A stretch of 64,000 nt of DNA from Acidobacteriota bacterium (GTDB lineage: Bacteria > Acidobacteriota > Vicinamibacteria > Vicinamibacterales > UBA2999), in NCBI GenBank assembly GCA_030650395.1, contig JAUSDY010000176.1, positions 1-64,000 on the forward strand, read 5' to 3'. Shown here in pieces: positions 28,347 to 48,573 of the stretch. The stretch's first letter is position 1. Each line of letters begins with the position of its first letter. A model generated the notes under the pieces. That model worked only from the letters and a program-made list of their open reading frames with translations. It was not told where the DNA came from and ran no database searches. Position numbers and translations under genes: made by a program.

Positions 28347-30898
28347 TTATCAATAGTCCTTCAGCTCGTTGGACCGCGGGGTCCTATCTCACGCATCGCT
28401 TCAATCCCGAGTTGGGGATCGGACGGGTGACCGCCCTCGAGGGCCGCGTCCTTGTGGTGGAGTTCCCGCGTGGCCGAACGACGCTCCGACTCGCCGCAAA
28501 TACCGCGGCCCTGGTCCCCGTTGATCTCAGCGTCGGACGCGCCGTCCGCATCACCGGCACAAACGAAGAAACGACAATCGCGTGGCCACGGCCCGACGGA
28601 ACGTTCGCGCTGGCGAACGGCAAAACGGTAGCGGCTGATGTCTTGTGGCCACTGGAGCTTGAAGGTGCGCTGCTCGAGCGCCTCGCCGTGGGCGACCTCG
28701 ACGATGTGGACGATTTCGTCACGCGGATGAACATCCTGCACCTGCTCGGGCTGCGAGAGGCGGATGGCCTGGGAACATTTCTCGGAGGGCGCGTGCGGCT
28801 GTATCCGCACCAGCTATACGTGGCTGAACGGGCCAGCAAGAGCGATCCGGTGCGCTGGTTGCTCGCGGACGAAGTGGGACTCGGAAAAACCATCGAAGCA
28901 TCGCTGATCCTGAACCGGCTGGTTCACCTCGGCAAAGTGACCCGTTGCCTGGTGGTGGCCCCTGACACACTGACCGTCCAGTGGCTCGGCGAGCTGTGGC
29001 GGAAGTACCACCAGGTGTTCACGCTGCTCGACTCGGATCGGCTCGCCGATGTGGCGCGGGACTTTGGCGACGGCTTCAACCCGTTCGAGCTTCATCGTCG
29101 CACCGTGGTGTCGCTCGAAATGCTGATCGAGCGGCCGGAGTTGACCGGGCAGGCGGTCAAGGCCGGCATCGATCTGCTCGTCGTGGATGAGGCGCAGCAT
29201 CTGCGACGTCCGCCAGGACACCCTGGCGATGCGGCCTGGCGTGCAGTCGCCCCCATTGCGGGCTTGGGCCGTCACGTGTTGTTGCTCAGCGCGACGCCGC
29301 TTGAAGACGACGCGCACGGGTTCTTCCGATTGCTGCAGTTGCTGCGGCCGCAGGACTTTCCGGAAGATATGAGCATTGAGGCGCGTCTCGCTCAAGGCAC
29401 GCCGCTGCCGGCGTGCACGAGTGCCACGCGTCGAGCCGACATCGGCGGGTTGCCGCCGCGGGTCGGCATTCCAATCGAGCTGACCGCGACCGCGAAGGCC
29501 AAGTCGCAGAGCGTGGTGGAGACCGTTGTAAGAAGCGCCGCAACGACCAACGTCGTCACAGAGCGCGACAAGATCGATCGCGTGCGTCGTGCGCTCGCAT
29601 CCGGCGCCGCGCTCGCCGCCGTGCTCGGTCCGAACGAAAACGACTTGCGAACGCAGGCCGTCGCAATGGACGGCACCGATCCTCGTGTCGATTGGCTGGT
29701 GTCTCAGGCGCCGCGCTGGCGCAACGCGAAAGAGAAGACGCTGGTGTTCGTGGCGCACCGCGAGACGCTCGAGATGCTTCGCGACAAGCTCAGCCAGCGC
29801 GCACAACTGGCGACCGGGATGTTTCACGAGGCGCTTACGCCCGCACGCCGAGACACCGAAGTGGCGCGGTTTCGCGAGCACGATGGTCCCAGCCTGCTGG
29901 TGTCTACCGAGTGCGGCGGTGAAGGCCGCAACTTCGAGTTCTGCCGCCGGATCGTCATGTTCGATCTGCCTTGGAAGCCATCGGTGGTCGAGCAACGCAT
30001 TGGACGGCTCGATCGCATCGGCCGCAAAATCCGCGTGGAGGTCGTCTACTTTCGTCCCGCCGCAGGAATTGGCCGCGATGTCGTGCGGCTGTTCGAGGCC
30101 CTGGGGTTGTTCCGAGAGCCGCTCGCGGGGCTCGAGCCGCAGTTGGCGCCAGTGGAAGGTGCGCTCGAACAGGTCGCACTCGATCCAGACGCGTCACTCT
30201 CCGACTCGCGCTTTGACACGCTCGTCGAGCAGGCCCATGCCGCGCGCACTCGCATTCGCGAAGCGGCGTATCAACAGCTGCACCGCGATCCCTATCGACC
30301 GGACATGGCGCCCGGCATTCTCGCGCGGGTGCCCACAGAACTGGACGCGCTCAACGAGGAAGTGGTGATCACCGCGTCGATCGGGCTGGGATTCACGATT
30401 GCGCATCCGCCCGGCCATCGCGTGTTCTCTATTGAGATCGGCAACGCTGCAACGGTGGATGGTTTACCCGGCGTTCCCGCCGGTTCCGGTTATGTCGGCA
30501 CCTTCGATCGTGAGGAAGCCGTCGAGAACGAGTTCATCGACTTCTTCGCGTCGGGGCATCCGTTGGTCGAAGGCATCTTTGCGCATTACGAGGAGAACGC
30601 CCTGGGTCGCGCCGTGCGTTTCGAGATCAAGATGGGCAATGAGATCGATGCGGGGCTCATCGCCATCTACAAAGACGGACCAGCTTTCGAGGTGATCGCG
30701 ATCGACGTCGGCGGCAACGCGCGCCCCGATTGGGCCGCCGCGGTACTCCGTCGGCCGATCAACGTCCGCCCCGTCACCGGTGAGGCCGCGAAGGACGTGG
30801 AGTGGCGGAGCATGGTTCGCCGGCTGGGAGCGCAGCTCGACCCCACCCGTCGTCTGCACGCCGTCGCGGCGATTGAAGTTCGTCCGGCAACCCTGTAG
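28343..30898 (+). CDS. RapA/SNF2-type DEAD-like helicase
   Basis: An SF2 helicase of about 851 aa. The N-terminal GSYLTHRFNPELGIGRV segment is typical of RapA/HepA-like proteins. Motif I DEVGLGKTIEAS is near residue 177, motif II DEAQ near 283, LLSATPLEDD is motif III, and the C-terminal helicase half has GGEGRNFEFCRR and VEQRIGRLDRIGR (motif VI). RapA proteins recycle stalled RNA polymerase; relatives also occur in defence loci, and the role here is open. The open frame extends upstream into the aminotransferase; TTG 28343 right after that gene's stop is the likely start. A family A palindrome abuts its stop. Confidence 0.85.
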   Translation: MFINSPSARWTAGSYLTHRFNPELGIGRVTALEGRVLVVEFPRGRTTLRLAANTAALVPVDLSVGRAVRITGTNEETTIAWPRPDGTFALANGKTVAADVLWPLELEGALLERLAVGDLDDVDDFVTRMNILHLLGLREADGLGTFLGGRVRLYPHQLYVAERASKSDPVRWLLADEVGLGKTIEASLILNRLVHLGKVTRCLVVAPDTLTVQWLGELWRKYHQVFTLLDSDRLADVARDFGDGFNPFELHRRTVVSLEMLIERPELTGQAVKAGIDLLVVDEAQHLRRPPGHPGDAAWRAVAPIAGLGRHVLLLSATPLEDDAHGFFRLLQLLRPQDFPEDMSIEARLAQGTPLPACTSATRRADIGGLPPRVGIPIELTATAKAKSQSVVETVVRSAATTNVVTERDKIDRVRRALASGAALAAVLGPNENDLRTQAVAMDGTDPRVDWLVSQAPRWRNAKEKTLVFVAHRETLEMLRDKLSQRAQLATGMFHEALTPARRDTEVARFREHDGPSLLVSTECGGEGRNFEFCRRIVMFDLPWKPSVVEQRIGRLDRIGRKIRVEVVYFRPAAGIGRDVVRLFEALGLFREPLAGLEPQLAPVEGALEQVALDPDASLSDSRFDTLVEQAHAARTRIREAAYQQLHRDPYRPDMAPGILARVPTELDALNEEVVITASIGLGFTIAHPPGHRVFSIEIGNAATVDGLPGVPAGSGYVGTFDREEAVENEFIDFFASGHPLVEGIFAHYEENALGRAVRFEIKMGNEIDAGLIAIYKDGPAFEVIAIDVGGNARPDWAAAVLRRPINVRPVTGEAAKDVEWRSMVRRLGAQLDPTRRLHAVAAIEVRPATL

Positions 30899-35150: not shown

Positions 35151-35225
<75 letters not shown>

Positions 35226-35362
35226 CCTTCGCTCAGAAATGTAGGCGAAGGGTGTCCACCGTAGCTGGCTACAACTCAGGCCAGCGAAGGTGGACCGCTG
35301 CCGCAGCTCGTGAGCTACGGTTGGCAAGCCACATCCGCTAATTCCACGGGCGCAAGTTCCCC

Positions 35363-37789
35363 TCACTCCGTGCGCAGCGCGTCAACCGGGCTCAGGCGCG
35401 CGGCGCGCCGAGCTGGAACCAGGCACGCGGCGAGCACAATCGCCGAGAGCATGACGGGAATCGACACGAACGTCACGAGGTCCAGTGGCGTGACTTCAAA
35501 GAGGACACTTGCGAGAAGCCGGCTCACGGCGATCGCCAAGGCCATTCCGATCGGCAACGCCAGCGCGAGCTGCCTCAGACCGGACCCGAGCACCAGCCAG
35601 ACGACATCACGAGTGCCTGCCCCCAGCGCGATTCGGATGCCGATTTCCTGCGTCCGCTGGCTGACGGCGTAGGCCGTGACCGCGTAGATGCCGAGAGCGG
35701 ACAGGAGGAGACCGATCAGCGCAAACGCGGAAAACAGCGTGCTGAGGATTCTCATCTCGCCACTCAACCTGTCGAGGTATTCATCGAGGGTCCACATGTT
35801 GATGAGCGGAAGGTCGGGATCCAGCTGGCGCACTTCCTCTCGCAGCACGTTCGCTGCCGCGGCAGGGGAACGGACGCGTGCCATGATGCTGAACCAGAAC
35901 GGCGGGCCCTGGCGGAACGGCAGGTACACCAGGGCCTCCACGTCAGGACGAAGACTCGTTTGACGAATGGTTGGACTGACGCCCACCACCGTGCTCCAGG
36001 GACGCTGCCCGAGGGGACCCCAACCGAGCCGAATCTTTTTTCCAACGGGATCCTCGCCGGGCCAGTACTGCGCGGCAAATCGCTGATTCACGATCGCGGC
36101 TTCGGCTCCGGGGTTGCCGTCTGCAGGCGTGAACTCCCGGCCACTTGGCATCGTCAGTCCAAGCGCCTCAAAGTATCCGGCCCCGATGGCCGTTGTGGCG
36201 ATGCGTGGCGGCGTGCCGTCGGCATTGGCAATCACGTGGTCGGCCAGGTCCAGAAACATCCGCCCTGCGCCACTCGCAGGAATCCCTGATGCGATCGTGA
36301 ACGACTCGAGACCTGGCAGCGAGGCCAGACGTTCGTTGAGCCGATCCGCGAATGCCACGCGATCCGCGTCCTCCGGATACTTCCGCTCGTCGAGCGGCAC
36401 GGTCATGGTGAGCACGTTGGCGGTTCGAAATCCCAGGTTCACGGTCTGCAAGGTGAACAAGCTGCGAACGAGGAGACCCGCGCCCACCATCAGGACGAAC
36501 GTCAGGCTGATCTCCGCCACGACGAGTGCGTGAGTCAGGAGCCGGGTACGACTCCCACCTGTCGCCTGGCGTCCTGTTTCCTTCAATCCCCCGGTGACGT
36601 CGGTCCTGGAGATCTGCAGCGCCGGCGCGAGACCGAACAGGACTCCGGACATGACGCAGATGACCAGCAGGTACACGAACGATGTCGCATCCATCGACCA
36701 GTCGACCCAATACGGGATGCCCATGGGCTGAATCGCCACGACGAACAGACGAATGAAGATCAGGGTGAGGCCGAGGCCGACGGCCCCGCCCAACAGGCTG
36801 AGCAGGACGCTCTCGATCAGAAGCTGACGCACGATGCGCCAGCGGCTGGCGCCCAGGGCGACCCTGATGGAGGTCTCGCGCGACCGGTGCACCGCGCGCG
36901 AGAGGAGCAGATTGGCGACATTCGCGCACGCGATCAGCAACACGAAGGACACAGCGCCCATCAGTGTCTGGGCCATCAGCTTTCTCTGCGGGTTGATGCC
37001 CCATTCGATGTAGGGCAACACGACCGGCTCCCTGCCCGGTCTGGTAAGGCCCGCCGCAACAATACGCTGTTCGATGCCGCGCAATTCCGTCTGGGCCTGT
37101 AGCAGCGGCACCGAAGACGGCAGCCGGCCAATCACCTCGAACCCGTCGCGGAGGTACCACGAGTCGCGGTTCTCGGGGGTGTCGACGACCGGAACCCACA
37201 GCGTGCTTCGGTCCGGAAACGCCATGTCCCTCGGCATGATTCCCACGATGGTGTAGGACTCAGCGCTCAACGTCACCGCTCGGCCGAGAATCGACGGGTC
37301 GCCGCCGTATTGCGTTTGCCACAAGCCGTAACTGAGGATGGCGACCTTGTTGGCTTCAGGCATGGCGTCATCGGCACGAAAATCACGTCCGAGCAGCGGC
37401 TTCTGTCCGATCAGCGAAAACGTATTCGGCGTCACCAGGCACCCCTCTGTCCGGTGCGGTGCGCCGCGTTCGTCGCGGATGGTGTAGCCGTAATAGCTCT
37501 GGAAGGCGGCGAGGCCCTCGAACGATCGGGCCTGCGCGCGATACTCCAGGAAATCCTCATACCAAATGCCACGCCTGTCCCATCCCTGGACGAGATTCCG
37601 AGTGTGGATGTGGACGATCTGCCGGGGGTTCTCGAACGGCAGGGTCTTGAACAGCGCCGCGTTGTAGATGGTGAACATCATGCTGTTCACACCGATGCCA
37701 AGCGCGATCGCGACCACGGCCGCCAGCGTGAATCCAGGGCTTTTCGCAAGGATTCGCCAACCGAATCGAATGTCCGGAAGGATGCTCAT
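35363..37789 (-). CDS. ADOP-type ABC transporter permease (FtsX/MacB-like)
   Basis: An 808-aa membrane protein of the acidobacterial duplicated orphaned permease (ADOP) type: N-terminal TM helix (GFTLAAVVAIALGIGVNS), MacB_PCD periplasmic domain, three-helix FtsX domain (LLIACANVANLLLSRA, ETSIRVALGASRWRIVRQLL), then a second PCD-FtsX copy (QEIGIRIALGAGTRDVVWLV, ARRAARLSPVDALRTE at the end). No ATPase partner is adjacent, as usual for the group. Substrate unknown. ATG 37789 with an AGGGCAG ribosome-binding site fits family starts; the frame extends upstream to 38134 but that part is antisense to a cytochrome gene. Confidence 0.92.
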   Translation of the reverse strand: MSILPDIRFGWRILAKSPGFTLAAVVAIALGIGVNSMMFTIYNAALFKTLPFENPRQIVHIHTRNLVQGWDRRGIWYEDFLEYRAQARSFEGLAAFQSYYGYTIRDERGAPHRTEGCLVTPNTFSLIGQKPLLGRDFRADDAMPEANKVAILSYGLWQTQYGGDPSILGRAVTLSAESYTIVGIMPRDMAFPDRSTLWVPVVDTPENRDSWYLRDGFEVIGRLPSSVPLLQAQTELRGIEQRIVAAGLTRPGREPVVLPYIEWGINPQRKLMAQTLMGAVSFVLLIACANVANLLLSRAVHRSRETSIRVALGASRWRIVRQLLIESVLLSLLGGAVGLGLTLIFIRLFVVAIQPMGIPYWVDWSMDATSFVYLLVICVMSGVLFGLAPALQISRTDVTGGLKETGRQATGGSRTRLLTHALVVAEISLTFVLMVGAGLLVRSLFTLQTVNLGFRTANVLTMTVPLDERKYPEDADRVAFADRLNERLASLPGLESFTIASGIPASGAGRMFLDLADHVIANADGTPPRIATTAIGAGYFEALGLTMPSGREFTPADGNPGAEAAIVNQRFAAQYWPGEDPVGKKIRLGWGPLGQRPWSTVVGVSPTIRQTSLRPDVEALVYLPFRQGPPFWFSIMARVRSPAAAANVLREEVRQLDPDLPLINMWTLDEYLDRLSGEMRILSTLFSAFALIGLLLSALGIYAVTAYAVSQRTQEIGIRIALGAGTRDVVWLVLGSGLRQLALALPIGMALAIAVSRLLASVLFEVTPLDLVTFVSIPVMLSAIVLAACLVPARRAARLSPVDALRTE

Positions 37790-37842
37790 CTGCCCTGTAA
37801 GACGATGGGAAGCATTGCACGAAAACGCATCCGGCACGTGCG

Positions 37843-37848
37843 TATAAT
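37843..37848 (+). promoter_or_regulatory. TATAAT -10-like element
   Basis: TATAATCCAG on the plus strand, upstream of the truncated cytochrome b gene. The same TATAATCCAG string occurs before the kinase pseudogene at 39123, suggesting a recurring promoter type; -35 elements are not clear at either. Confidence 0.35.
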
Positions 37849-37879
37849 CCAGTCGTCGGCGACATGCACTCAGCCCTGA

Positions 37880-38329
37880 CGTCCAGCCCCGTTCACTCGT
37901 ATAGGCCTCGTCTACGTCGGGTGGAATCTCTACACGGCGCATTTTCGCAAGCAGATGTTGCCGGAGCGTTCGGAGCTCACGACGGCGAATATCTGGGCCG
38001 ACCTGCGCGACCATCTGCGCTGGCGATCGCGCCGGCATACGTCCGGCAGCGCCTATGGCACACTGCAGAAGACGTCGTACTTGCTCCTCATTTGTGTGTT
38101 CGTGCCGTTCATGATCCTGACTGGTGTCGCACAATCACCTGGCTACACCGCGGCGATGCCGGTGTTGCTCGATCTATTCGGTGGCCGTCAGTCGGCGCGC
38201 ACCCTGCATACCATCGGCACGGTCCTGCTCGTGTTGTTCGTCGTGGTCCATCTGCTGGAGATCGCCGCCGCGGGATTCTTGACGCGAGTCCGTTCGATGA
38301 TCACCGGGAAGGAGTCGATTCGTGGATAG
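37880..38329 (+). pseudogene. truncated cytochrome b561-type subunit
   Basis: The frame opens after a stop at 37877 and reads IGLVYVGWNLYTAHFRKQ then MLPERSELTTANIWADLRDH and two or three TM helices (LLLICVFVPFMILTGVAQS, TLHTIGTVLLVLFVVVHLL with a heme-ligand-type histidine). In complete family members these are the second half of a four-helix cytochrome b that partners a molybdopterin oxidoreductase; the first helices and their heme ligands are missing and no start codon precedes GLVYVGW. An ATG at 37955 could express only a fragment. The stop overlaps the next, also broken, gene. Confidence 0.7.
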
Positions 38330-39093
38330 GATGCTCATGATGAACCGGCGCATCTCACGCCGCACGTGGCTGGCGAGCGTCCCGGTCGTGGGTGGTCTGT
38401 TGCTGACCACAGGATGTTCGCGCGAGAAGTTCATTCCGCCGGTCGTGCGAGGCGGCCTGATCGGCGCCGCCGATGCTGACGATGAGCTCCAATCGGCTCC
38501 TGCTGTCCGGTCAGCAGTTGGCGCGCGAGTACTCGCTGAGCGATGTTGCCGACCCATTCCCGACGTGGAACCAGACCAATCCAAAGAACGATGAGTATCA
38601 ACGGCATGCCGCCGAGGGTTTCAGAAACTGGCAGCTTCCGATCAGTGGTCTGGTCGCGCGTCCTTCGGCGTTGTCACTCGATCAGATCAAGGGGCTGGCC
38701 TCCCGCACGCAGATCACGGCTCACGTGTGTGAGCAGGGCTGGTCGGCCATTGGCGAATGGACCGGCGCGCCGCTCCAGCGGGTGCTCGAAGCCGCGGGCG
38801 GCGTCACGGCGGCGGCACGCTACGTGGTCGTCGATACCTACGACCGCTGGTACGAGGCGTACGATCTGTTCGAGGTCGAACATCCGCAGACGATCCTTGC
38901 GTACCGCCTCAATGGCCGCGATCTTCCCAGGGGCAACGGCGCGCCACTCCGCCTGCGGGTCGAACGGCAATGCGGCTACAAGAATCTCAAGTTCGTGAAG
39001 TCGATTCGGGTCGTCGACTCGATCGCCGGTATCGGCAAGGGCACTGGCGGCATCAACTCAGACGCTGGGTTCCATTGGTTTGCGGGCGTCTAA
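38322..39093 (+). pseudogene. frameshifted sulfite oxidase-family molybdopterin oxidoreductase
   Basis: Frame 1 (38322-about 38475; likely ATG 38340) gives a Tat/lipoprotein-like leader MNRRISRRTWLAS...LLLTTGC and GGLIGAAD. The protein continues in another frame from 38473 (LTMSSNRLLLSGQQLAREY) through HVCEQGWSAIGEWTG, whose cysteine would ligate molybdenum, to ERQCGYKNLKFVKSI. A net two-base loss (or one-base gain) near 38475 separates the halves. The enzyme would be a periplasmic sulfite/sulfoxide-type oxidoreductase taking electrons to or from the adjacent cytochrome b; both are broken. Confidence 0.75.
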
Positions 39094-39122
39094 CACCCGA
39101 CGGCGCCTCGCCCTCCTGCCCA

Positions 39123-39128
39123 TATAAT
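39123..39128 (+). promoter_or_regulatory. TATAAT -10 element upstream of kinase pseudogene
   Basis: TATAATCCAG, 13 bases before the TTG at 39142. Initiation would be close to the start codon, giving a near-leaderless message. Confidence 0.4.
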
Positions 39129-39141
39129 CCAGCTCAGCCCC

Positions 39142-41769
39142 TTGTCCCTCACCTCCGGCCGGCGCCTCGGCGTCTATGAGATCACCGCGCAGATTGGCGA
39201 AGGCGGGATGGGGCAGGTGTATCGAGCGACCGACACCAAGCTGAAACGCCAGGTCGCGATCAAGATCCTGCCGCCGGCGTCGCCGCTGATCACGATCGGC
39301 TCGCGCGGTTTCAACGCGAAGCGGAAGTGCTCGCGTCGTTGAACCATCCGCACATTGCCGGCATCTACGGGCTCGAAGAAAGCGATGGCGTCTCGGCCCT
39401 CGTGATGGAATTGGTCGAAGGCGAGGATCTGTCGCAGCGCATCGCGCGCGGCGCGATTCCGGTCGATGAAGCGCTGCCAATCGCGAAACAGATCGCCGAC
39501 GCTCTCGAAGCCGCACACGAGCAGGGGATCGTTCACCGCGATCTGAAACCGGCGAACATCAAGGTGCGCGAGGATGGCACCGTGAAGGTGCTGCAAGACC
39601 TCAGGACCTCAAGACCTCGTTAATTCGCCGACGATCACATCTCCCGCGATGACGCAGGCTGGGATGATCCTCGGTACGGCGGCGTACATGGCGCCGGAAC
39701 AGGCGAAGGGCCGTAGCGTAGACAAACGGTGCGATGTGTGGGCGTTCGGCGCCGTGCTCTACGAAATGCTGACGGGCACGCGCGCATTCGCCGGCGAGGA
39801 CATCACCGACACGATCGTCTCCGTGATCAGCAAGGAGCCGGACTGGGCCGCGCTCCCTCCTTCGACGTCGTTGCCGGTGCGGTCGCTGTTGCGGCGCTGT
39901 CTCGACAAGGATTCCCGGCGGCGGTTGCGCGACATTGGTGAAGCCCGCCTCGCGCTCGAAACCGCGAACGATCCGGCGCCGGCCCCGGTCAGTCAGGTCC
40001 GCCTGCGCCAGAGCCCACTCGTGTGGGTACTCGCCGTGATTGCCGTCCTGTCACTGGCGGGTTCCGCGGTTGCGCTGTGGCAGCGGCCCGCGGCCGTTGA
40101 GAAGATCTCGGCTCGCCTGACCATCCCGCTTCCGCCGGGTGCTGAAATCACTTCGTATCCGGCGATCACTCGTGACGGCCGTACCGTAGCTTACGTTACC
40201 CAACAAGGCACCGAAGACTCGCAGCTCTATCTGCGCGATCTGAATTCGTTCGAGGCCCGCGCAGTTGTTGGTTCGAGCGGCGCCAAGCAACCGTTCTTTT
40301 CGCCGGATGGCAAATGGGTCGCGTTTTTCGCACAGGGGCAGCTTCAGAAAGCAGAGGTCGCCGGGGGCGCCCCCATCCGGATCGTCGAAGCGAGCTATAG
40401 CTTCGGTGGCACGTGGAACGACGACAACACCATCATCTACACCGCGACGATCCGCTCCGGGCTCTTGCGGATTCCTGCCAGCGGAGGAACGCCCGAAACT
40501 CTGACCAGTCCGGACGGCGCCGCAGCGGGCTACGCCCACGTGTTTCCGCAAGCGCTTCCCGGAGGACGCCGCGTCCTGTTCACGACTTGGGGGCAAACAC
40601 AGGGCAGCGCGATGCTCTCGCTGGATTCCGGCAAATGGGAAATGGTCTTGCCCGCGACGACGTTTGCCGCCGCGATGTTCGACGCGTCTGGCGGTTCGAT
40701 CGGCCGCCTCCTGGTCGTCGACCCGACCGCCGGCATCCGAGCCGCGCCGTTCGATCCCGCGAGCCCGGCGCGCACCAGCGCTGATGCGTCCCTGCTGTCC
40801 GGCGTGTACTCCGACATCGAAAACGAGACTCAGGCCTGGCTGGCCATCTCGAACGCTGGTCCTGCGGTCTACGTGCCAGGCAACCCTGCCGGGAGTTCGC
40901 TGGTGTGGGTCGACCGGCAAGGAAAGATCGAATCGTTTGGCAAGGAGCATGATGTCTATCGCGAGGTGAGCATCGCGCCGGATGGGACGAAGGCGGTCGT
41001 CCGACATGGAACCAACCTCTGGATTCATGACTTGCAGCGCGGGACTCGAATACCGCTGACGTCTGGGAACAACAGCAGCAACTTTCTTCCGCAATGGAGC
41101 TCTGACGGCCAGCGGATCGTGTTCGCCTCGAATCGCGGCGGCGACTGGGACTTCTACTCGCAACCTGCCGACGTATCGGGGCCCGCGGAACCGCGGCTCA
41201 AGCGGCCGTACGATCAATTCCCGTACTCGTCCTTGCCGGACGGGACGATTCTGTTCAGTGAACTCCATCCCAGGACGGGTCGCGATCTGTGGATCGTGGC
41301 GCCGGACGGCAAGACGTCGCCCGTGCGAGTCACCCCATACAACGAAATGGCCGGGCAATTCTCGCCTGGTCCCGCAGGCGGGCCGCACCGCATCGCGCAC
41401 TCGTCCGACGAGTCGGGTCGTTACGAGATCTATGTGCAGGCGTACCCTGGCGGAGCGAATCGTGTTCCGGTTTCGAATGAAGGCGGAACGTGGCCCACGT
41501 GGTCGCGCGATGGGAAAGAGCTCTTCTACGTGACGGGCGACGCTCTTGTTGTGGCGGCTGCGCAGCCCGACGGATCATTCGGCGCTCCGCTCAAGCTGTT
41601 CGACCGCTCGAACTTCCTCTTGAACTACCGGTTCCGGTCCTACGATGTCTCGGCGGACGGCAAACGGTTCCTGATGATCCAGCGCGATCCAGCGTCGGTG
41701 CCGCGCCAGCTCAATGTGATTCTCAATTGGCCAGAAGAGCTGAAGCGTCTGGTGCCGACAGGGAAGTAG
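39142..41769 (+). pseudogene. Ser/Thr kinase with PD40 repeats, broken in two places
   Basis: Three frames together spell one acidobacterial kinase. 39142-39342 encodes the glycine loop [12 protein letters not shown] and lysine VAIKILPPA, then shifts frame near 39278. 39327-39623 encodes [18 protein letters not shown], the catalytic HRDLKPANIKV and KVLQ, then stops. At this point the DFG loop is missing and replaced by ACCTCAGG/ACCTCAAG repeats (39594-39618). 39649-41769 (706 aa) carries GTAAYMAPEQAKG, the rest of the C-lobe, a TM helix (VLAVIAVLSLAGSAVALW) and a TolB/PD40 beta-propeller (FSPDGKWVAFF and repeats). The last part could still be expressed from ATG 39649 without kinase activity. 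Confidence 0.85.
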
Positions 41770-41782
41770 ACTGACTCCAGCT

Positions 41783-42286
41783 GTGGGCCAGTTTCGCGAC
41801 GTACTGCTACTCCTGAGCCGCCTGAAGTCGGACGGCGTGATTCACGACTACGCCATCGGCGGCGCGGTGGCGGTGAGTCTGTGGGCAGAGCCGGTCGCCA
41901 CACAAGATCTCGATGTGATCGTGACCATCGCCGGCGACGCACATCCGCTCGATCCGCTGCGCCCGCTGTTGGATTGGTTCAATCAACACGGACAGCGCTT
42001 TGAGGGGGAGCACGTCCTGATCGCAGGAGTGCCGGTCCAGTTTCTGCTGGCGTGGTCGTCGCTCGTCCAGGAGGCAGTGGCCACGGCCTCGGAGACAGTT
42101 TACGATCCGGCGGATTCCGAATCTCCGACTATCCGATTGATTCAGCCGACGTATCTCGTCGCGATGTGGCAAACGGACCAGGGGGCCGACACACCCCGAC
42201 GGCGAGAACGCGCCGCTCGCCTGCGCGAGGCCGGCTTGGTGGACGAGGCCCTGCTGACGGAGCTAGTCTCGAGGACGAGAACGTGA
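41783..42286 (+). CDS. nucleotidyltransferase-fold protein
   Basis: A 167-aa protein with GTG start. YAIGGAVAVSLWAEPVATQDLDVIV matches the nucleotidyltransferase motif hG(G/S)-x-DxD-like of AbiEii/DUF6036-type proteins, though only DLD is clearly seen. Such proteins occur in toxin-antitoxin and abortive infection modules. It is followed by a small protein in a GTGA overlap, consistent with a two-gene module. Function is not established. Confidence 0.65.
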   Translation: MGQFRDVLLLLSRLKSDGVIHDYAIGGAVAVSLWAEPVATQDLDVIVTIAGDAHPLDPLRPLLDWFNQHGQRFEGEHVLIAGVPVQFLLAWSSLVQEAVATASETVYDPADSESPTIRLIQPTYLVAMWQTDQGADTPRRRERAARLREAGLVDEALLTELVSRTRT

Positions 42287-42471
42287 CGATGAAGCCGACC
42301 ACGCCGTTTGGCGGAAAGGCCCAGTGGCACGCGCAACAGCGCCAATTGCCGCCGCGGGAAAAGATCCGCATTCTGATCGAGTTGCAGCGTCGCGAAGCTG
42401 AAAGCAACCGGATCCGAGAATCGCTCGGTCGGCCGGCCGTCGCGATGAAGCCCTGGGATACGCAGGCGTAG
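42283..42471 (+). CDS. small protein, 62 aa, partner of nucleotidyltransferase-like gene
   Basis: Starts at GTG 42283, overlapping the upstream stop by 4 bases, or at ATG 42289. The sequence (PFGGKAQWHAQQRQLPPREK then a charged helix RILIELQRREAESNRIRESL) is basic and helical, with no recognised domain. Context suggests it works with the upstream protein, for example as antitoxin or DNA-binding partner. Confidence 0.55.
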   Translation: MTMKPTTPFGGKAQWHAQQRQLPPREKIRILIELQRREAESNRIRESLGRPAVAMKPWDTQA

Positions 42472-42615
42472 CCTCAAGGCCCAGACGCGAGCTGCGGATG
42501 CCATGCGTTCGTTAGACGATACGCCAAACTGGAAAGCCTGAGTAAGCTCACAGCCAAGGAGGTATAACCTACCGACGCGGACATCCGGGAAATCTTGACG
42601 ACCTGAGGAGGCGAG

Positions 42616-45600
42616 ATGGTGGGATTCGTATCGAGAGTGGCCCTGGGTGTGGCGATTGCTGCGGCGTTGGTGACGGGCAGCGCCGCGGATGGGCCCGGAT
42701 CAACCGACTGGCCAACGACCAACTTCGATCAGACCGCCAACCGCTACAGCCCGCTCGATCAGATCACCGCGGGCAACGTGCGCACGTTGCAGCAGGTCTG
42801 GAGCTTTCATCTCAAGCCTGCCGGCTTTAACGGCGGCATGCGCGAAGACGAAGCCATTCCACTCGTGATCGGCAACACGATGTATATCGCATCGCCGTAC
42901 GGCGCCGTCCACGCGCTCGACGCCACCACCGGCACGGAACAATGGAAGTGTCAGCTTCCCAACATCGACCGGCCGTCGAAGCGCGGGCTGGCGTACTGGC
43001 CGGGTGGCGGCGGCGTGCCGCCGTCGATCATCTTCGGCGTGCTCTCGGGCTCGATGTACTCGATCAAGGCGTCGGACGGCACGCCGAATGCCGGGTTCGG
43101 CCAGAACGGCGTCATCAACCTCAAGACGCCTGACGTGATGCAGACCGGCATGGATGCAACGTATTCCCTGCTGTCGTCGCCAACCATCTACAAGAATCTC
43201 ATCATCATCGGCGCCGGCACCGGCGAAGGGGCGGGTGGTTCAGGTGCGGGCACCGGACCCGCCGGCGATACGCGCGCCTTCGACGCCATCACCGGTAAGC
43301 TGGTGTGGACCTTCCACACCGTGCCGAGGCCGGGAGAGTTTGGCTACGACACCTGGAAAGAAAACAGCGCGAAGGATCGGTCCGGCGTCAACGTCTGGGG
43401 CTATACGTCGCTCGATGTCGAGCGCGGCATTCTGTATATGCCGATCGGCGCCCCCAACAACGACCGCGTCGGTGTCGATCGTCCCGGCAACAATCTCTTT
43501 TCATCCTCGGTGGTCGCCGTCGACGCGAACACCGGCAAGTATCTCTGGCACTTTCAGGTCGTGCATCACGACATCTGGGATTACGACACGCAGTCGGCGC
43601 CGTTGCTCGTCGATCTGCAGCGGGACGGGAAGACGGTTCCCGCCGTGATCATCGCCACGAAGATGGGATTGATGTTCACGCTCAACCAGCCGCCGCCGCT
43701 GACGCAGAACACGATCTCGCGCGATCACCTTTACCAGGGCGAGCCGCAGCATCAGTCCTACTGCGAGCACATGGTCGACGACAACGATATGAAGCTCGGC
43801 GGGCCGTACCTGCCGATCGCTTTCAATCGCTACAGCGTGTCCCCTCCAGGACCAGCAGGCGGCATCAACTTCTGGGGATCCTCCTACGATCCCAAGCTGC
43901 ACTTGTTTATCTCGAACACCAGCAACATCTTTCAGCCGATGCGACTGATCCTCCGGCCCGACGGCAGCTACATCAATTCCGGTCCGCTCGCGGGCGTTCG
44001 CCGCTTCGGCGACGCCGATCGGCGTCTGTTGTGCGGGCCGACGCCGTGGGGTGAACTCGTCGCGGTCAATATGGATACCGGCGACATCGCGTATCGCAAG
44101 ACGCTTGGCGTGTCCGACATGTTGCCTGCGGGTTTCCAGGACACCGGCCGGCCCAGTTCCGGCGGCGTCATGTTGACGGCCAGCGGCCTCACGTTTGTCG
44201 GCGGCACGGACGACTTCAGGTTCCGCGCGTTTGCGACGGCGACCGGCGACCAGCTCTGGGAAATCAAGATGCCGTCATCGATCGAAACGACACCGATCAC
44301 CTACCTGGGATCGGATGGACGCCAGTTCGTGACGGTGGTGAGCACCGGTGGCGGGCTCACGGGATCCGCGGTCACCAACGACGAGATCATCGCCTTCGCC
44401 TTGCCAAATCGGAGCGCCGCGCCGCAGCAAACGGGATATCCCATCACGCTCGTCGCACCGGGACAGGGCCCGTATACATTTCCCGACGGCTACCAGACGC
44501 CGTGGGATCGCATTGAGATCATGGTGACCGAAAAAATGTCGCCGAATCTCTTCGTGCTGCACGGATCCCAGGGCCTTGATCCCGCACACCCGGATGCGTC
44601 CGGCGGAAGAGCGATGGCGCTCTTCGGACCGGATGGCGTGCTGATGGTGGATACGCAGAACCGGCAGGTCGCCGACAAGACGCTGAACGCGCTGCGGTCA
44701 TTCACCGACGGCCCCATCAAGATACTGGTCAACACTCATCTTCACAGCGATCACACCGGCGCGAACGCGTTCTTCGCCAAACAGGGAGCGTTGATCTACT
44801 CGCAGGACAATCTTCGCAACGAGATGCTGCGTCCGCCGCGGCGCGCCAACGGCCAGCCGTTGCCGGCGCCCGACATGGCGAGCATTCCGGTAGCGACGTA
44901 TGCGTGTGACGCCGCCACGGCCGGCCAGCCGGCCGTGACTTTCAACATGAACGGCGAAACGGTGGACTTCATCCCGACGATGCCATCCCACACCGCCGGC
45001 GACACCATCGTGCGCTTTCGCAAGGCCAACGTGATCTATATCGAGGACTTCTACCGCAACTTCGGTTATCCGTTTGCCGATCAGGCCAACGGCGGATCGA
45101 TCAGAGGCATGATCGATGCGGTTGACCTGATCCGAAGGCTGGCCGATCCCGAGACCGCGCTCGTCCCCGGACATGGCACGTTGATCAAGAAGGATGATCT
45201 GCTGCCGTACCGCGCCATGCTGGTGGACATCCTGGCCAAGGTGAAGACGCTACGCGATCAGGGCAAATCATTGAAGGACGTGCTGGCCGCAAACTTGACG
45301 GCGCCGTATGACAAGAGTACCCAGGGCGACACGCAGCAGAGCAAAGACCGTTTCATCACCGAGGTGTATGACGAGGTGAAGGATTTTCCGCCTGTCGTTG
45401 ACGGAAAGCGGACCATGCCTGCGGTTGTTCCCGGCCAGACAGGCGTGCAGTCGGTGCAATACCGGTCACCCGCGGGCGTGGATTATCGCTCGCTTCCCGA
45501 TACCGACGCCGTCAAGAGCGCGCGGGCCGCTCTCGAAGCCAACCCAAAGACCATTCCTCGCATCATCGACCTTGGCGTGGCACAGTCCGGTGCGCGGCAG

Positions 45601-45642
45601 TTTCTCTTTTCCCCGGAGCGGAGCTGGACGCTATCGGTTTAA
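42616..45642 (+). CDS. chimeric quinoprotein dehydrogenase - MBL hydrolase - TPR-leader fusion
   Basis: A 1008-aa exported protein with signal peptide (ALGVAIAAALVTGSA) and strong GGAGG ribosome-binding site. Residues 25-600 form a PQQ-dependent dehydrogenase beta-propeller (WPTTNFDQTANRYSPLDQIT, GQNGVINLKTPDVM, WHFQVVHHDIWDYD, FVGGTDDFRFRAF). Residues 625-930 form an MBL domain with THLHSDHTG near residue 705 and PGHGTL. Residues 940-996 are a copy of the N-terminal part of the TPR protein at 47704 (172-bp direct repeat), followed by an unrelated tail. The first two modules may be a genuine fusion; the third is a recombination product. Confidence 0.8.
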   Translation: MVGFVSRVALGVAIAAALVTGSAADGPGSTDWPTTNFDQTANRYSPLDQITAGNVRTLQQVWSFHLKPAGFNGGMREDEAIPLVIGNTMYIASPYGAVHALDATTGTEQWKCQLPNIDRPSKRGLAYWPGGGGVPPSIIFGVLSGSMYSIKASDGTPNAGFGQNGVINLKTPDVMQTGMDATYSLLSSPTIYKNLIIIGAGTGEGAGGSGAGTGPAGDTRAFDAITGKLVWTFHTVPRPGEFGYDTWKENSAKDRSGVNVWGYTSLDVERGILYMPIGAPNNDRVGVDRPGNNLFSSSVVAVDANTGKYLWHFQVVHHDIWDYDTQSAPLLVDLQRDGKTVPAVIIATKMGLMFTLNQPPPLTQNTISRDHLYQGEPQHQSYCEHMVDDNDMKLGGPYLPIAFNRYSVSPPGPAGGINFWGSSYDPKLHLFISNTSNIFQPMRLILRPDGSYINSGPLAGVRRFGDADRRLLCGPTPWGELVAVNMDTGDIAYRKTLGVSDMLPAGFQDTGRPSSGGVMLTASGLTFVGGTDDFRFRAFATATGDQLWEIKMPSSIETTPITYLGSDGRQFVTVVSTGGGLTGSAVTNDEIIAFALPNRSAAPQQTGYPITLVAPGQGPYTFPDGYQTPWDRIEIMVTEKMSPNLFVLHGSQGLDPAHPDASGGRAMALFGPDGVLMVDTQNRQVADKTLNALRSFTDGPIKILVNTHLHSDHTGANAFFAKQGALIYSQDNLRNEMLRPPRRANGQPLPAPDMASIPVATYACDAATAGQPAVTFNMNGETVDFIPTMPSHTAGDTIVRFRKANVIYIEDFYRNFGYPFADQANGGSIRGMIDAVDLIRRLADPETALVPGHGTLIKKDDLLPYRAMLVDILAKVKTLRDQGKSLKDVLAANLTAPYDKSTQGDTQQSKDRFITEVYDEVKDFPPVVDGKRTMPAVVPGQTGVQSVQYRSPAGVDYRSLPDTDAVKSARAALEANPKTIPRIIDLGVAQSGARQFLFSPERSWTLSV
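45433..45604 (+). repeat. 172-bp direct repeat, copy 1 (end of chimeric gene)
   Basis: About 90 percent identical by eye to 47785-47956, same frame and orientation, no length difference. Copy 2 is at its native place in a TPR gene, so copy 1 is the derived one. Confidence 0.85.
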
Positions 45643-45816
45643 AGGTTAGGGACGAGCAGCAATTAAGAATTGGGGAGTCGATTCAAGAGGCGCGAGAGGC
45701 TTGGGATCGCGTCGGCAAACGCCTGCTCGGGCTATAGCTTAACTTTCGCGTATCGACCGATCACAGCCCGCCTCAGCGCTCCAGGCCGCACGTGATTGGC
45801 CTTCTGACCTTACCTT

Positions 45817-46185
45817 TTATCGTGTCACTACCCGGCGTCTTTGCGCCTTCCTGCTGGCGACGGCCCGTCTGCGCCCGGTTCGGCCTGGGTGCCCCTTCGG
45901 AGTGATTGATACTTCGATGCGGCCGTTCATCGCCTTGACGGCGCGCACCAGCGTCTGGAGCCCGATGTTGCGCGTCTTGCCAGCCTCCAGCTTGGCGATC
46001 ACAGGCTGCTTAACGCCGAGTTTCTCGGCGAGCTGTCGTTGAGATAGTCCGCTGGCATTGCGCAGCGCAACGAGTTCCTGTTCGATCCGCATGGCCTGTA
46101 GTTCCGCGTCGACAGCCGCCGCGAAATCAGGATCGTTTTTCGCGCGCTGGTCGATGGTGGCGACGGTGCTTTTGGTCAGCGGCAT
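45817..46185 (-). CDS. XRE-family antitoxin (HigA/Gp49-partner type)
   Basis: A 122-aa helix-turn-helix protein: ALRNASGLSQRQLAEKLGVK and PVIAKLEAGKTRNIGLQTL form the HTH, followed by a basic tail (RTGRRRAVASRKAQRRR). It starts 2 bp after the stop of the upstream toxin gene, a toxin-first order typical of HigBA-like modules. It should neutralise the toxin and autoregulate. The 174 bp between it and the chimeric gene hold nothing I can identify. Confidence 0.85.
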   Translation of the reverse strand: MPLTKSTVATIDQRAKNDPDFAAAVDAELQAMRIEQELVALRNASGLSQRQLAEKLGVKQPVIAKLEAGKTRNIGLQTLVRAVKAMNGRIEVSITPKGHPGRTGRRRAVASRKAQRRRVVTR

Positions 46186-46187
46186 GA

Positions 46188-46550
46188 TTAGCGGCCTTTC
46201 TTCGGCTTCTTGAGCTCGGCGTTCACGGCAGCCTGCAACGCCCGAAGCCGTTTCATCGTCGCGTCCGGGATGTCGTCGCGCTTTTTCGTCATGCCGTCGA
46301 GCAGCGCAGCATGATTGTCGGGCAGCAACACGTAAAACAACCGGACGCCTGTCCCGACATCCCTGAGCTCATGAAGCCCGTCACCTAACGAGCGCGAATG
46401 GGGAAGGCGCAGCTCGTAACCGAGCGCCTCGAGCAGCTTCACGAGCGCCGCTGCCTTGGTCGCCGCCGTCCCTTCGAGCCCCGCGATGTACTCGTCCACC
46501 GGAGCGTTGCCGCCCGGCGTCTGATACGTGAGCACCGTGCAGCGGGGCAC
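46188..46550 (-). CDS. RelE/Gp49-like toxin (phage-derived Gp49 family)
   Basis: A 120-aa RelE-superfamily toxin: VDEYIAGLEG, ALGYELRLPHSRSLGDGLHELR and VRLFYVLLPDNHAALLDGMTKK match the Gp49-like group (HELR, R-x-FY strand, GxxKK). Such toxins are ribosome-dependent mRNA endonucleases. The start is preceded by A/T-rich sequence. It forms a TA pair with the downstream XRE gene at the right end of the island, where it may stabilise the element. Confidence 0.85.
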   Translation of the reverse strand: MPRCTVLTYQTPGGNAPVDEYIAGLEGTAATKAAALVKLLEALGYELRLPHSRSLGDGLHELRDVGTGVRLFYVLLPDNHAALLDGMTKKRDDIPDATMKRLRALQAAVNAELKKPKKGR

Positions 46551-46728
46551 GAACGAAGTATAGCTTATAGGCTATCGCCTGGCAAACGCGTCCGGAGCCT
46601 CGTTCGACTGAATGCGGCTCGGAACGTGGGAACAACTAGGGAACACGCGCGCCCAAACACCGGGCAAAACGAGGGAGTAGGGCCGACCAGCGAGCAAGAC
46701 GAGTCAACAACTTAGCGACCCCGGCCCT

Positions 46729-46775
46729 GTCTGCAAAACCTCCATCCCCGGTTCAAATCCGGGCGGCGCCTCCAA
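46729..46775 (+). repeat. attR-like 47-bp fragment of tRNA-Cys
   Basis: Identical to 35179-35225. It lacks the acceptor 5' strand and D-arm, so it is not a tRNA gene. The surrounding interval 46551-46923 has no other supported feature. Confidence 0.8.
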
Positions 46776-46966: not shown

Positions 46967-47218
46967 ATGGCCGGGCGGGACACGAAATCTGCACGGCGCT
47001 TCGCTAAGGATCTTTGGCCTTCAATTCGGCGCAAACTGGCGAGTCTCGACGCGACCGCCAGTCTGGCTGATCTTGCCGCGGTGCCTGGCTACCGTTTGGA
47101 GGCGCTGAAGGGCGATCAGAAGGGTCGACATAGCATCCGCGTGAACGCTCAATACCGAATCACGTTCCGCTTCGAGGAGGGGCATGCGAGCGCCGTACGA
47201 TGCGAGGACTATCACTAG
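46967..47218 (+). CDS. HigB-type toxin, N-terminus probably frameshifted
   Basis: The 83-aa frame matches the HigB family C-terminal two-thirds (RKLASLDATASLADL, PGYRLEALKGDQKGRHSI, RITFRF, EDYH). Canonical HigB begins IRSF...; that segment is present in another frame from GTG 46924 (VIRSFDQAAAEDLFYG) and runs to a stop at 47005. One extra base within CCGGGCGGGAC (46971-46980) would explain it. ATG 46967 could still give a shortened toxin. The antitoxin gene follows 77 bp later and is intact. Confidence 0.7.
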   Translation: MAGRDTKSARRFAKDLWPSIRRKLASLDATASLADLAAVPGYRLEALKGDQKGRHSIRVNAQYRITFRFEEGHASAVRCEDYH

Positions 47219-47295
47219 CTAACTGTAACTAACTAACTAAACCCAATAACTATTCTAATTATGTCCGCAATCGCGGCGGCATAGGAGTATCCGCG

Positions 47296-47601
47296 ATGAA
47301 GACCGCAGAACCGATCCATCCGGGAGAGATCCTGCTCGAGGAATTTCTGAAAGCCTACGATCCGCCCGTTTCTCAGACTGAGGCGGCTGAGCGTCTGGGC
47401 TGGTCGTTTGTGCGCCTGAACCAGTTGATCAATCAGAAGCGCGGCGTGACGGCTGAGAACGCCGTGGACCTTGCGGCGCTTACCGGGACGTCGTCGATGT
47501 TCTGGATGAACCTGCAGCAGCGCTATGACCTTTGGCACGCGGAGCGCCAGCGTGAGCGGCGCGGTGCACCGAAGATCCGGCCGTTGAAGAAGACGGCCTG
47601 A
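47296..47601 (+). CDS. higA: HigA-family XRE antitoxin
   Basis: A 101-aa HigA: IHPGEILLEEFL at the N-terminus, HTH SQTEAAERLGWSFVRLNQLI, then GVTAENAVDLAALTGTSSMFWMNLQQRYDL, all diagnostic. It represses its own operon and inhibits HigB. The upstream toxin appears damaged at its 5' end, leaving a possibly solitary antitoxin. Confidence 0.9.
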   Translation: MKTAEPIHPGEILLEEFLKAYDPPVSQTEAAERLGWSFVRLNQLINQKRGVTAENAVDLAALTGTSSMFWMNLQQRYDLWHAERQRERRGAPKIRPLKKTA

Positions 47602-47703: not shown

Positions 47704-48573
47704 ATGCCTTTTAGAGACACTCACCGTGCCGCGTTGACGTCCATCATCGCCGCGGCGATCACCCTGGGGCCTGCGCTCGATGCGGGCCAGACCGGCGTGC
47801 AATCGGTGCAATACCGGTCACCCGAGGGAGTGGAGTATCGCTCGCTTCCCGATACGGACGCGGTTAAGAGCGCGCGAGCCGCTCTCGAAGCCAACCCAAA
47901 GACCATTACTCGCATCATCGACCTCGGCGTTGCCCAGTCCGGCGCGCGGCAGTTTCGCGAAGCCATCGCGACGTTCACGCGGGGGCTCGAGATCGAGCCG
48001 AACAACGCGCTGCTCCTCCGATGGCGCGGCCATCGATATCTTTCCCTGCGTGAATTCGATCGCGCGTTCGCCGACCTCACGCGCGGCGGCGCCATCGACA
48101 GCACGATCTACGGAATCTGGTACCACCTCGGTGTCGTCCAGTACCTGCGCGGAGACTTTGCCGAAGCGGCCGCATCGTTCGCCAAGGCTCAGCCGATCGC
48201 ACCGGACGCCGGCGAACTGGCGGGTTCCACGGACTGGTTGTGGATGTCGCTCAGCCGGGCCGGGCGCGGCGCGGAAGCGAGGTCTATGCTTGATCGGATG
48301 CTCGATCGGCGGCCGGATTCGAAGCCCGTGACCAACGCGTACACGCGGCGCCTGCAACTCTATCGTGGCGAGATCGGTCCGGAAGCCGTGGTAACGGCGG
48401 CGGATACGGACGAAGTGCAGGTCGCCACGCTCGCCTACGGCCTTGGCAACTGGTACCTCCTGCGGGGCGACAAGGCGCAGGCGCGCAGTTGGTTCGAGCG
48501 ATCGATCCAGTCGGGCGGTTGGCCCGGGTTCGGATTCATCGTGTCGGAGGTGGAGCTCCGACGGCTTCGTTAA
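47704..48573 (+). CDS. TPR-repeat secreted protein
   Basis: A 289-aa protein with a signal peptide (ALTSIIAAAITLGPALDA) and a set of tetratricopeptide repeats (ARQFREAIATFTRGLEIEPN, REFDRAFADLTRG, LGVVQYLRGDFAEAAASF, KAQARSWFERSIQSG). Likely a periplasmic scaffold. ATG 47704 gives a clean signal peptide. Codons for residues 28-84 are duplicated at the 3' end of the quinoprotein-MBL gene (45433-45604). Confidence 0.8.
   Translation: MPFRDTHRAALTSIIAAAITLGPALDAGQTGVQSVQYRSPEGVEYRSLPDTDAVKSARAALEANPKTITRIIDLGVAQSGARQFREAIATFTRGLEIEPNNALLLRWRGHRYLSLREFDRAFADLTRGGAIDSTIYGIWYHLGVVQYLRGDFAEAAASFAKAQPIAPDAGELAGSTDWLWMSLSRAGRGAEARSMLDRMLDRRPDSKPVTNAYTRRLQLYRGEIGPEAVVTAADTDEVQVATLAYGLGNWYLLRGDKAQARSWFERSIQSGGWPGFGFIVSEVELRRLR
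47785..47956 (+). repeat. 172-bp direct repeat, copy 2 (native, in TPR gene)
   Basis: Partner of 45433-45604; the two copies bracket the island right end and both toxin-antitoxin loci. Confidence 0.85.

Follow-up and report, generated by a model that had tools for sequence, protein, structure and literature searches.

A single open reading frame joining PQQ propeller, MBL and TPR-gene sequences in a putative tRNA-Cys island of an Acidobacteriota bacterium

The proteins described to date that come closest to the first two parts of the frame reported here are the quinoprotein dehydrogenases and the MBL-fold hydrolases. The propeller resembles the former (PF01011, 477 bits), with TIGR03074 (glucose/quinate/shikimate type) as its best NCBIfam match and the quinohaemoprotein alcohol and methanol dehydrogenases, such as 1kb0, as the nearest solved structures. 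The MBL domain finds its best NCBIfam match in TIGR04559 (SoxH-like quinoprotein relay system zinc metallohydrolase 2), aligned over positions 5–279 of 283, and has the same fold as the chlorothalonil dehalogenase 6uxu (Z 25.7, rmsd 2.8, 275 aligned) and the MBL-fold hydrolase 8d2z (Z 23.2, rmsd 2.9, 261 aligned). In Pseudomonas putida the gene beside pedH is annotated as a SoxH-like ‘quinoprotein relay’ hydrolase (PMC12997753). The locus examined here lies in a 64,000-nucleotide stretch of the Acidobacteriota assembly GCA_030650395.1 (contig JAUSDY010000176.1), hereafter the window, in which propeller and MBL domain are encoded by one gene inside what looks like a tRNA-bracketed genomic island.

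Architecture of the fused frame

The frame on the forward strand starts with ATG, runs for 1008 codons with zero internal stops and ends at its sole stop codon. In a Pfam profile search it matches PQQ (PF01011, E 1.1e-142, best stretch residues 32–357) and Lactamase_B (PF00753, E 3.8e-07, residues 669–723). Residues 1–597 comprise a signal-peptide-like start and the propeller, residues 602–936 the MBL domain and residues ~935–996 the copy of a TPR-gene start, followed by 12 final residues outside the repeat. The features of the frame, and of the gene from which its third part can be recognized, are as follows.

42605–42611 (+): Shine-Dalgarno-like GAGGAGG upstream of the ATG, found by eye
42616–45642 (+): fused ORF of 1008 aa; PQQ propeller, MBL domain, TPR-gene fragment and unmatched tail
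42616–44406 (+): signal-peptide-like start (judged by eye) and PQQ propeller, residues 1–597, to the native end IIAFALP
43686–43687 (+): 33-codon in-frame loss within the propeller (residues 357/358), from orthologue alignment
44407–44430 (+): propeller–MBL junction, residues 598–605, at the position of the MBL signal peptide in relatives
44419–45423 (+): MBL domain, mature part only, with H708, H710, D712, H713, H792, D811 and H853
45417–45604 (+): 188-nt copy of the TPR-gene start, joined at the native C-terminus of the MBL domain
45605–45642 (+): end of the frame, LFSPERSWTLSV, outside the repeat
47704–48573 (+): TPR-repeat gene, of which 47769–47956 matches the fused fragment (nucleotide repeat and profile match)

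The initial annotation, which had described three gene pieces in one 1008-codon frame and a THLHSDHTG motif in the MBL domain, is borne out on both counts by the ORF, the Pfam matches and the 188-nt repeat, the motif occupying residues 707–715. To that description we add the gap of 33 residues in the propeller, the missing MBL signal peptide, the Shine-Dalgarno-like site and the tRNA-Cys island. Every block of the frame has a third-position GC content of 0.70–0.90. No promoter or terminator was detected in scans of 42280–46000. All signal peptides, of the fused ORF and of its relatives, were judged by eye.

The propeller scores 477.2 bits against PF01011 (gathering cut-off 26.7) and is incomplete, lacking 33 residues in frame between residues 357 and 358. 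All ten orthologues of at least 67% identity have exactly 33 extra residues at this point; among 49 wider relatives, at least 15 extra residues are present in 35, and fewer or none in 14. With this conserved stretch missing, the propeller is probably impaired. Residues D319, D322 and K349, which we take to be the conserved Asp and Lys residues near the PQQ cofactor, are invariant across the five aligned sequences. The propeller of the fusion may or may not bind PQQ. The model of this domain, built from five aligned rows, has a mean pLDDT of 63.7, with low stretches at 357–383 and 389–416 around the gap and others elsewhere. Two full-length alignments, A1 and A3, were left out because they misplaced the propeller rows. 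Orthologous propellers terminate in IIA(F/L)ALP plus two residues in the eight that show this end, and the fused frame continues beyond the native end as NRSAAPQQTGYPITLV.

The MBL domain reaches 30.7 bits against PF00753 (cut-off 22.7) and falls short of the class B β-lactamases, at 40.9 of 100 bits for the class B core and 31.3 of 200 bits for subclass B1. Residues H708, H710, D712, H713, H792, D811 and H853 are invariant in all 17 aligned MBL sequences; they are the metal-site residues of the domain, the chemistry of which may be lactonase-like. This zinc hydrolase site is complete in sequence and may still be working; the model of the domain has a pLDDT of 81.3. Stand-alone MBLs have a signal-peptide-like start, which in most stops immediately before xxYPI; the fused ORF has lost it. 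At the other end the native C-terminus reads GKRTMP plus two to three residues in 9 of 17 sequences, the remainder being similar, and in the fused ORF GKRTMPA leads directly into the TPR copy. Broken MBL genes occur elsewhere in the same family, in G034 (L053 1087–1971; a frame change with loss) and in G014 (L055 8356–9000; cut at both ends).

The third part of the frame and the TPR gene downstream share 188 nt (45417–45604 and 47769–47956) at 90% identity, with 19 differences and a common reading frame, the protein stretch common to both being 62 residues (90%). The longest exact match between the two copies is at most 30 bases. In DNA identity the closest match of the fragment is the TPR gene of the window itself (90%), followed by a shortened TPR gene of genome G088 (88%). 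By codon position 1, 2 and 3 the differences number 3, 2 and 14. Since 14 of 19 lie at third positions, the divergence took place between coding genes, and the identity of the two copies thus dates their split and not the join; the initial annotation had read the roughly 90% identity as a clearly recent recombination, and that reading loses its support. The TPR tail of the fusion is presumably without function. In G088 the contig of the shortened TPR gene, 6.8 kb long, also carries genes for a Phage_integrase and tRNA-Pro (L145 4581–5057, 563–1432 and 6613–6689); on L140 of the same genome the nearest propeller orthologue directly adjoins a tRNA-Pro (L140 2114–4285).

Branch dN/dS was estimated from triplets, with six outgroups for the propeller and five for each MBL comparison. 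For the propeller the window branch gives 0.15–0.26 vs 0.11–0.25 for G088, being higher with four of the six outgroups; dN on the window branch is roughly double the G088 value, and dS is also longer in four of six. For the MBL domain the window branch gives 0.12–0.20 vs 0.10–0.30 for G083 and G088. Both domains thus show purifying selection on the window branch, in the range of the sister branches and with no clear sign of relaxation, although most of that branch may predate the fusion. At otherwise invariant propeller sites the window has 18 changes of its own and other members 1 to 25 (G088 1, G043 3, G145 3, G151 4, G149 6, G034 23, Gemm91 25), and at otherwise invariant MBL sites it has 2, the others having 1 to 9. 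The 18 window-only changes of the propeller and its approximately twofold dN are compatible with an accidental fusion as well as with a working enzyme.

The fused parts in related genomes

The 17 named MBL loci, from metagenome-assembled genomes of Acidobacteria, Gemmatimonadota and Proteobacteria, show 61–85% identity to the domain, and all 17 stand alone with their own start. These loci and the genome counts that follow overlap, some genomes being the same (e.g. L082 and G088:C392). At E ≤ 1e-60 the MBL domain is matched in 18 of 162 genomes of the order, the window's included; among the 17 others, four matches lie in open frames of more than 500 aa (G089, G092, G052 and G084) and the rest in frames of at most 438 aa. 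Inspection of the four long frames revealed no propeller fusion. That of G089, an open frame of 1113 aa, was considered as a second fusion and set aside, as the MBL there begins with a Met and a signal-peptide-like stretch of its own, and the part of the frame upstream loses its resemblance to a propeller; here the propeller gene lies directly upstream of the MBL gene and is separate from it. The long frames of G092 and G052 were likewise rejected, the MBL having its own start in each, as was that of G084, where the part preceding the MBL does not resemble a propeller and a run of Ns comes after it. A phylum sample gave an MBL match in 5 of 396 genomes, again including the window's and two others also present in the order, the two new frames being of 307 and 325 aa.

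Propeller matches at E ≤ 1e-110 occur in 15 of the 162 order genomes, the window's included. The C-terminal end of the propeller is visible in 13 of the 14 others, in frames of at most 712 aa, and in G076 it is cut by the contig end. No plasmid record among the 366 that match covers 80% of the query, nine pattern-matching stretches of viral contigs encode no MBL relatives, and the titles and abstract openings of the literature searched name no PQQ–MBL fusion. The same fusion is thus found in no other genome examined, and the fused gene is probably a one-off. The initial annotation had called for a search for PQQ–MBL fusions elsewhere and had named separate PQQ and MBL genes in all relatives as evidence against its view; the search returned no fusion from the order, the phylum sample, the named loci or the plasmids examined, and separate genes are what the relatives examined present.

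The evidence that such propeller and MBL partners are functionally linked is modest. In L091, a contig from a member of the Gemmatimonadota, 4 kb separates the two orthologues, which are on opposite strands and have a gene for an FMN-binding/4Fe-4S protein between them (L091 1999–8975). Both orthologues are present in 4 of the 161 other order genomes, where about one would be expected (P 0.008, uncorrected for kinship). In all four they are on different contigs, and G034, one of these four, has a broken MBL gene. A different propeller gene occurs within 8 kb of several MBL loci. Against a functional link, a conserved neighbourhood of the MBL gene, looked for by eye, was not found, and the propeller is followed by the same gene, presumably for an S1-like RNA-binding protein, in only three of the four family f8 genomes examined (L051 6764–8215, L143 9577–11022 and L149 519–1718; not L144).

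The tRNA-Cys island

The fused frame lies towards the right end of a stretch of ~11.6 kb that is bracketed by an exact 47-bp direct repeat of the 3′ part of tRNA-Cys.

35151–35224 (+): tRNA-Cys (gca)
35179–35225 (+): left exact 47-bp repeat, 3′ part of tRNA-Cys, putative attL
35179–46775 (strand not assigned): putative genomic island, ~11.6 kb, bracketed by the tRNA-Cys repeat
39124–41766 (+): broken Pkinase/PD40 gene, in frames 3, 2 and 3, with ~18 homologue residues unmatched
45817–46550 (−): toxin-antitoxin-like pair at the right end of the island (Gp49-like 46188–46550, HTH 45817–46185)
46729–46775 (+): right exact 47-bp repeat, putative attR
46967–47601 (+): second, different toxin-antitoxin-like pair just outside the island (HigB-like 46967–47218, HTH 47296–47601)

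Besides the fused frame and the toxin-antitoxin-like pair, the island contains a MacB/FtsX permease, a molybdopterin oxidoreductase, the Pkinase/PD40 gene and a nucleotidyltransferase-like ORF, the last named by eye and without a Pfam match. At 38322–39093, overlapping ORFs in different frames resemble, by eye, one frame-shifted molybdopterin oxidoreductase. None of the eight island ORFs scanned, a set that leaves out small and overlapping ORFs, matched an integrase, and because no integrase was found the mobility of the island is presumptive. With a GC content of 0.629, as compared with 0.659 for the left flank and 0.615 and 0.636 for the right, composition does not separate the island from its right flank.

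In the siblings G002 and G006 a genome-wide search at E ≤ 1e-10 found the 47-bp repeat sequence only once, and DNA like positions 30000–30873 of the window begins ~200–270 bp from the 3′ end of tRNA-Cys. The island thus appears to be absent from this site in both genomes, as judged from the tRNA side only because the far side is arranged differently in the window and in the siblings. G008, of the same genus, has no second repeat copy and carries other ORFs. A second copy does occur in G004 (L167), ~15.5 kb away and with a Phage_integrase 1 kb from the same tRNA-Cys, and in G007 (L168) an integrase lies 2.9 kb from tRNA-Cys, with no second repeat copy seen. Taken together, the setting of the fused gene looks like decaying mobile DNA.

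Origin of the fusion and comparison with known systems

We consider it probable that the gene is a one-off fusion made within a decaying tRNA-Cys island, with an intact MBL site and a propeller that is probably impaired. As the gene lies in what looks like decaying mobile DNA and its parts are separate genes in the relatives examined, an accident of DNA shuffling is more likely than a new enzyme. Under this explanation the propeller gene would have dropped 33 codons in frame together with its stop codon, and would have come to continue into an MBL gene immediately past the MBL signal peptide; the MBL gene would in turn have lost its stop codon and come to run into the beginning of a TPR gene, which is truncated after ~62 residues. 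We infer the order and the cause of these rearrangements inside the island. The product would be exported by way of the propeller's signal peptide and the Sec route, the MBL domain folding outside the cytoplasm. Several observations count against an accident. The joins of propeller and MBL domain fall at natural domain ends, as selection would favour; dN/dS of both domains on the window branch is in the range of the sister branches, with few window-only changes in the MBL domain; and 3 kb of sequence contain neither a stop nor a frameshift, three in-frame joins being expected by chance about once in 27, although the last of them may be irrelevant to the protein.

These same observations lend some credence to a working, exported bifunctional enzyme, in which the PQQ propeller would oxidize an alcohol or aldose and the MBL domain would hydrolyse the product, for example a lactone or an ester, although on balance we regard this as doubtful. 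The intact frame with its domain-end joins, signal-peptide-like start and Shine-Dalgarno-like site, the signs of purifying selection on propeller and MBL domain, and the conservation of D319, D322, K349 and the MBL metal residues are what such an enzyme would present. So are the L091 orthologues 4 kb apart, the presence of both genes in 4 of 161 order genomes (P 0.008, uncorrected for kinship) and the SoxH-like hydrolase annotated beside pedH in P. putida (PMC12997753). However, the propeller lacks 33 conserved residues, the fusion is seen in no other genome examined and sits in a decaying setting, the two genes are on different contigs in the four order genomes that have both, one of which, G034, has a broken MBL, and the selection estimates may reflect the time before the fusion. 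The initial annotation had proposed an exported oxidoreductase-hydrolase; the first two modules do look exported and keep their conserved residues, but their combined function is possible rather than proven. The stricter form of this proposal, an island-borne exported quinoprotein–metallohydrolase fusion acting as one enzyme, with the dehydrogenase product passed to the zinc hydrolase, we judge unlikely. An assembly artefact joining pieces of separate genes would agree with the separate genes in relatives and with an assembly of 180 contigs, but is improbable: the other matches in the same genome reach at most 46% identity for the propeller and 29% for the MBL domain and the two TPR copies have no exact match longer than 30 bases, so repeat-driven misassembly is unlikely, and all three joins are in frame with third-position GC of 0.70–0.90 in every block.

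Compared with the known systems, the propeller scores 330.6 of the 832.65 bits required for TIGR03074, three orthologues scoring 406–411, and the N-terminal part of that profile is absent from the propeller and its orthologues alike. Unlike the quinoprotein dehydrogenase orthologues, the fused propeller lacks 33 mid-propeller residues and carries an MBL domain. The MBL domain scores 61 of the 280 bits required for TIGR04559, two stand-alone relatives scoring 73.7 and 64.7, and differs from that family in being fused to a dehydrogenase; at 15–20% identity to 6uxu and 8d2z, the substrates of these proteins are not transferable to it. If functional, the fusion would connect quinoprotein dehydrogenases with the uncharacterized MBL hydrolases of SoxH-like type and make the substrate of these hydrolases testable, and if propeller and MBL domain do act as one enzyme, SoxH-like MBLs near quinoproteins would be shown to act on the quinoprotein's product. 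Should it be accidental, it would clearly exemplify how a tRNA island can assemble in-frame chimeras out of almost complete domains, and would warn against treating fusions of this kind as proving a common pathway. The island itself resembles tRNA islands with tyrosine integrases in the exact tRNA 3′ repeat at both ends, the sibling G004 having both an integrase and a second copy, and differs from them in that none of its eight scanned ORFs is an integrase.
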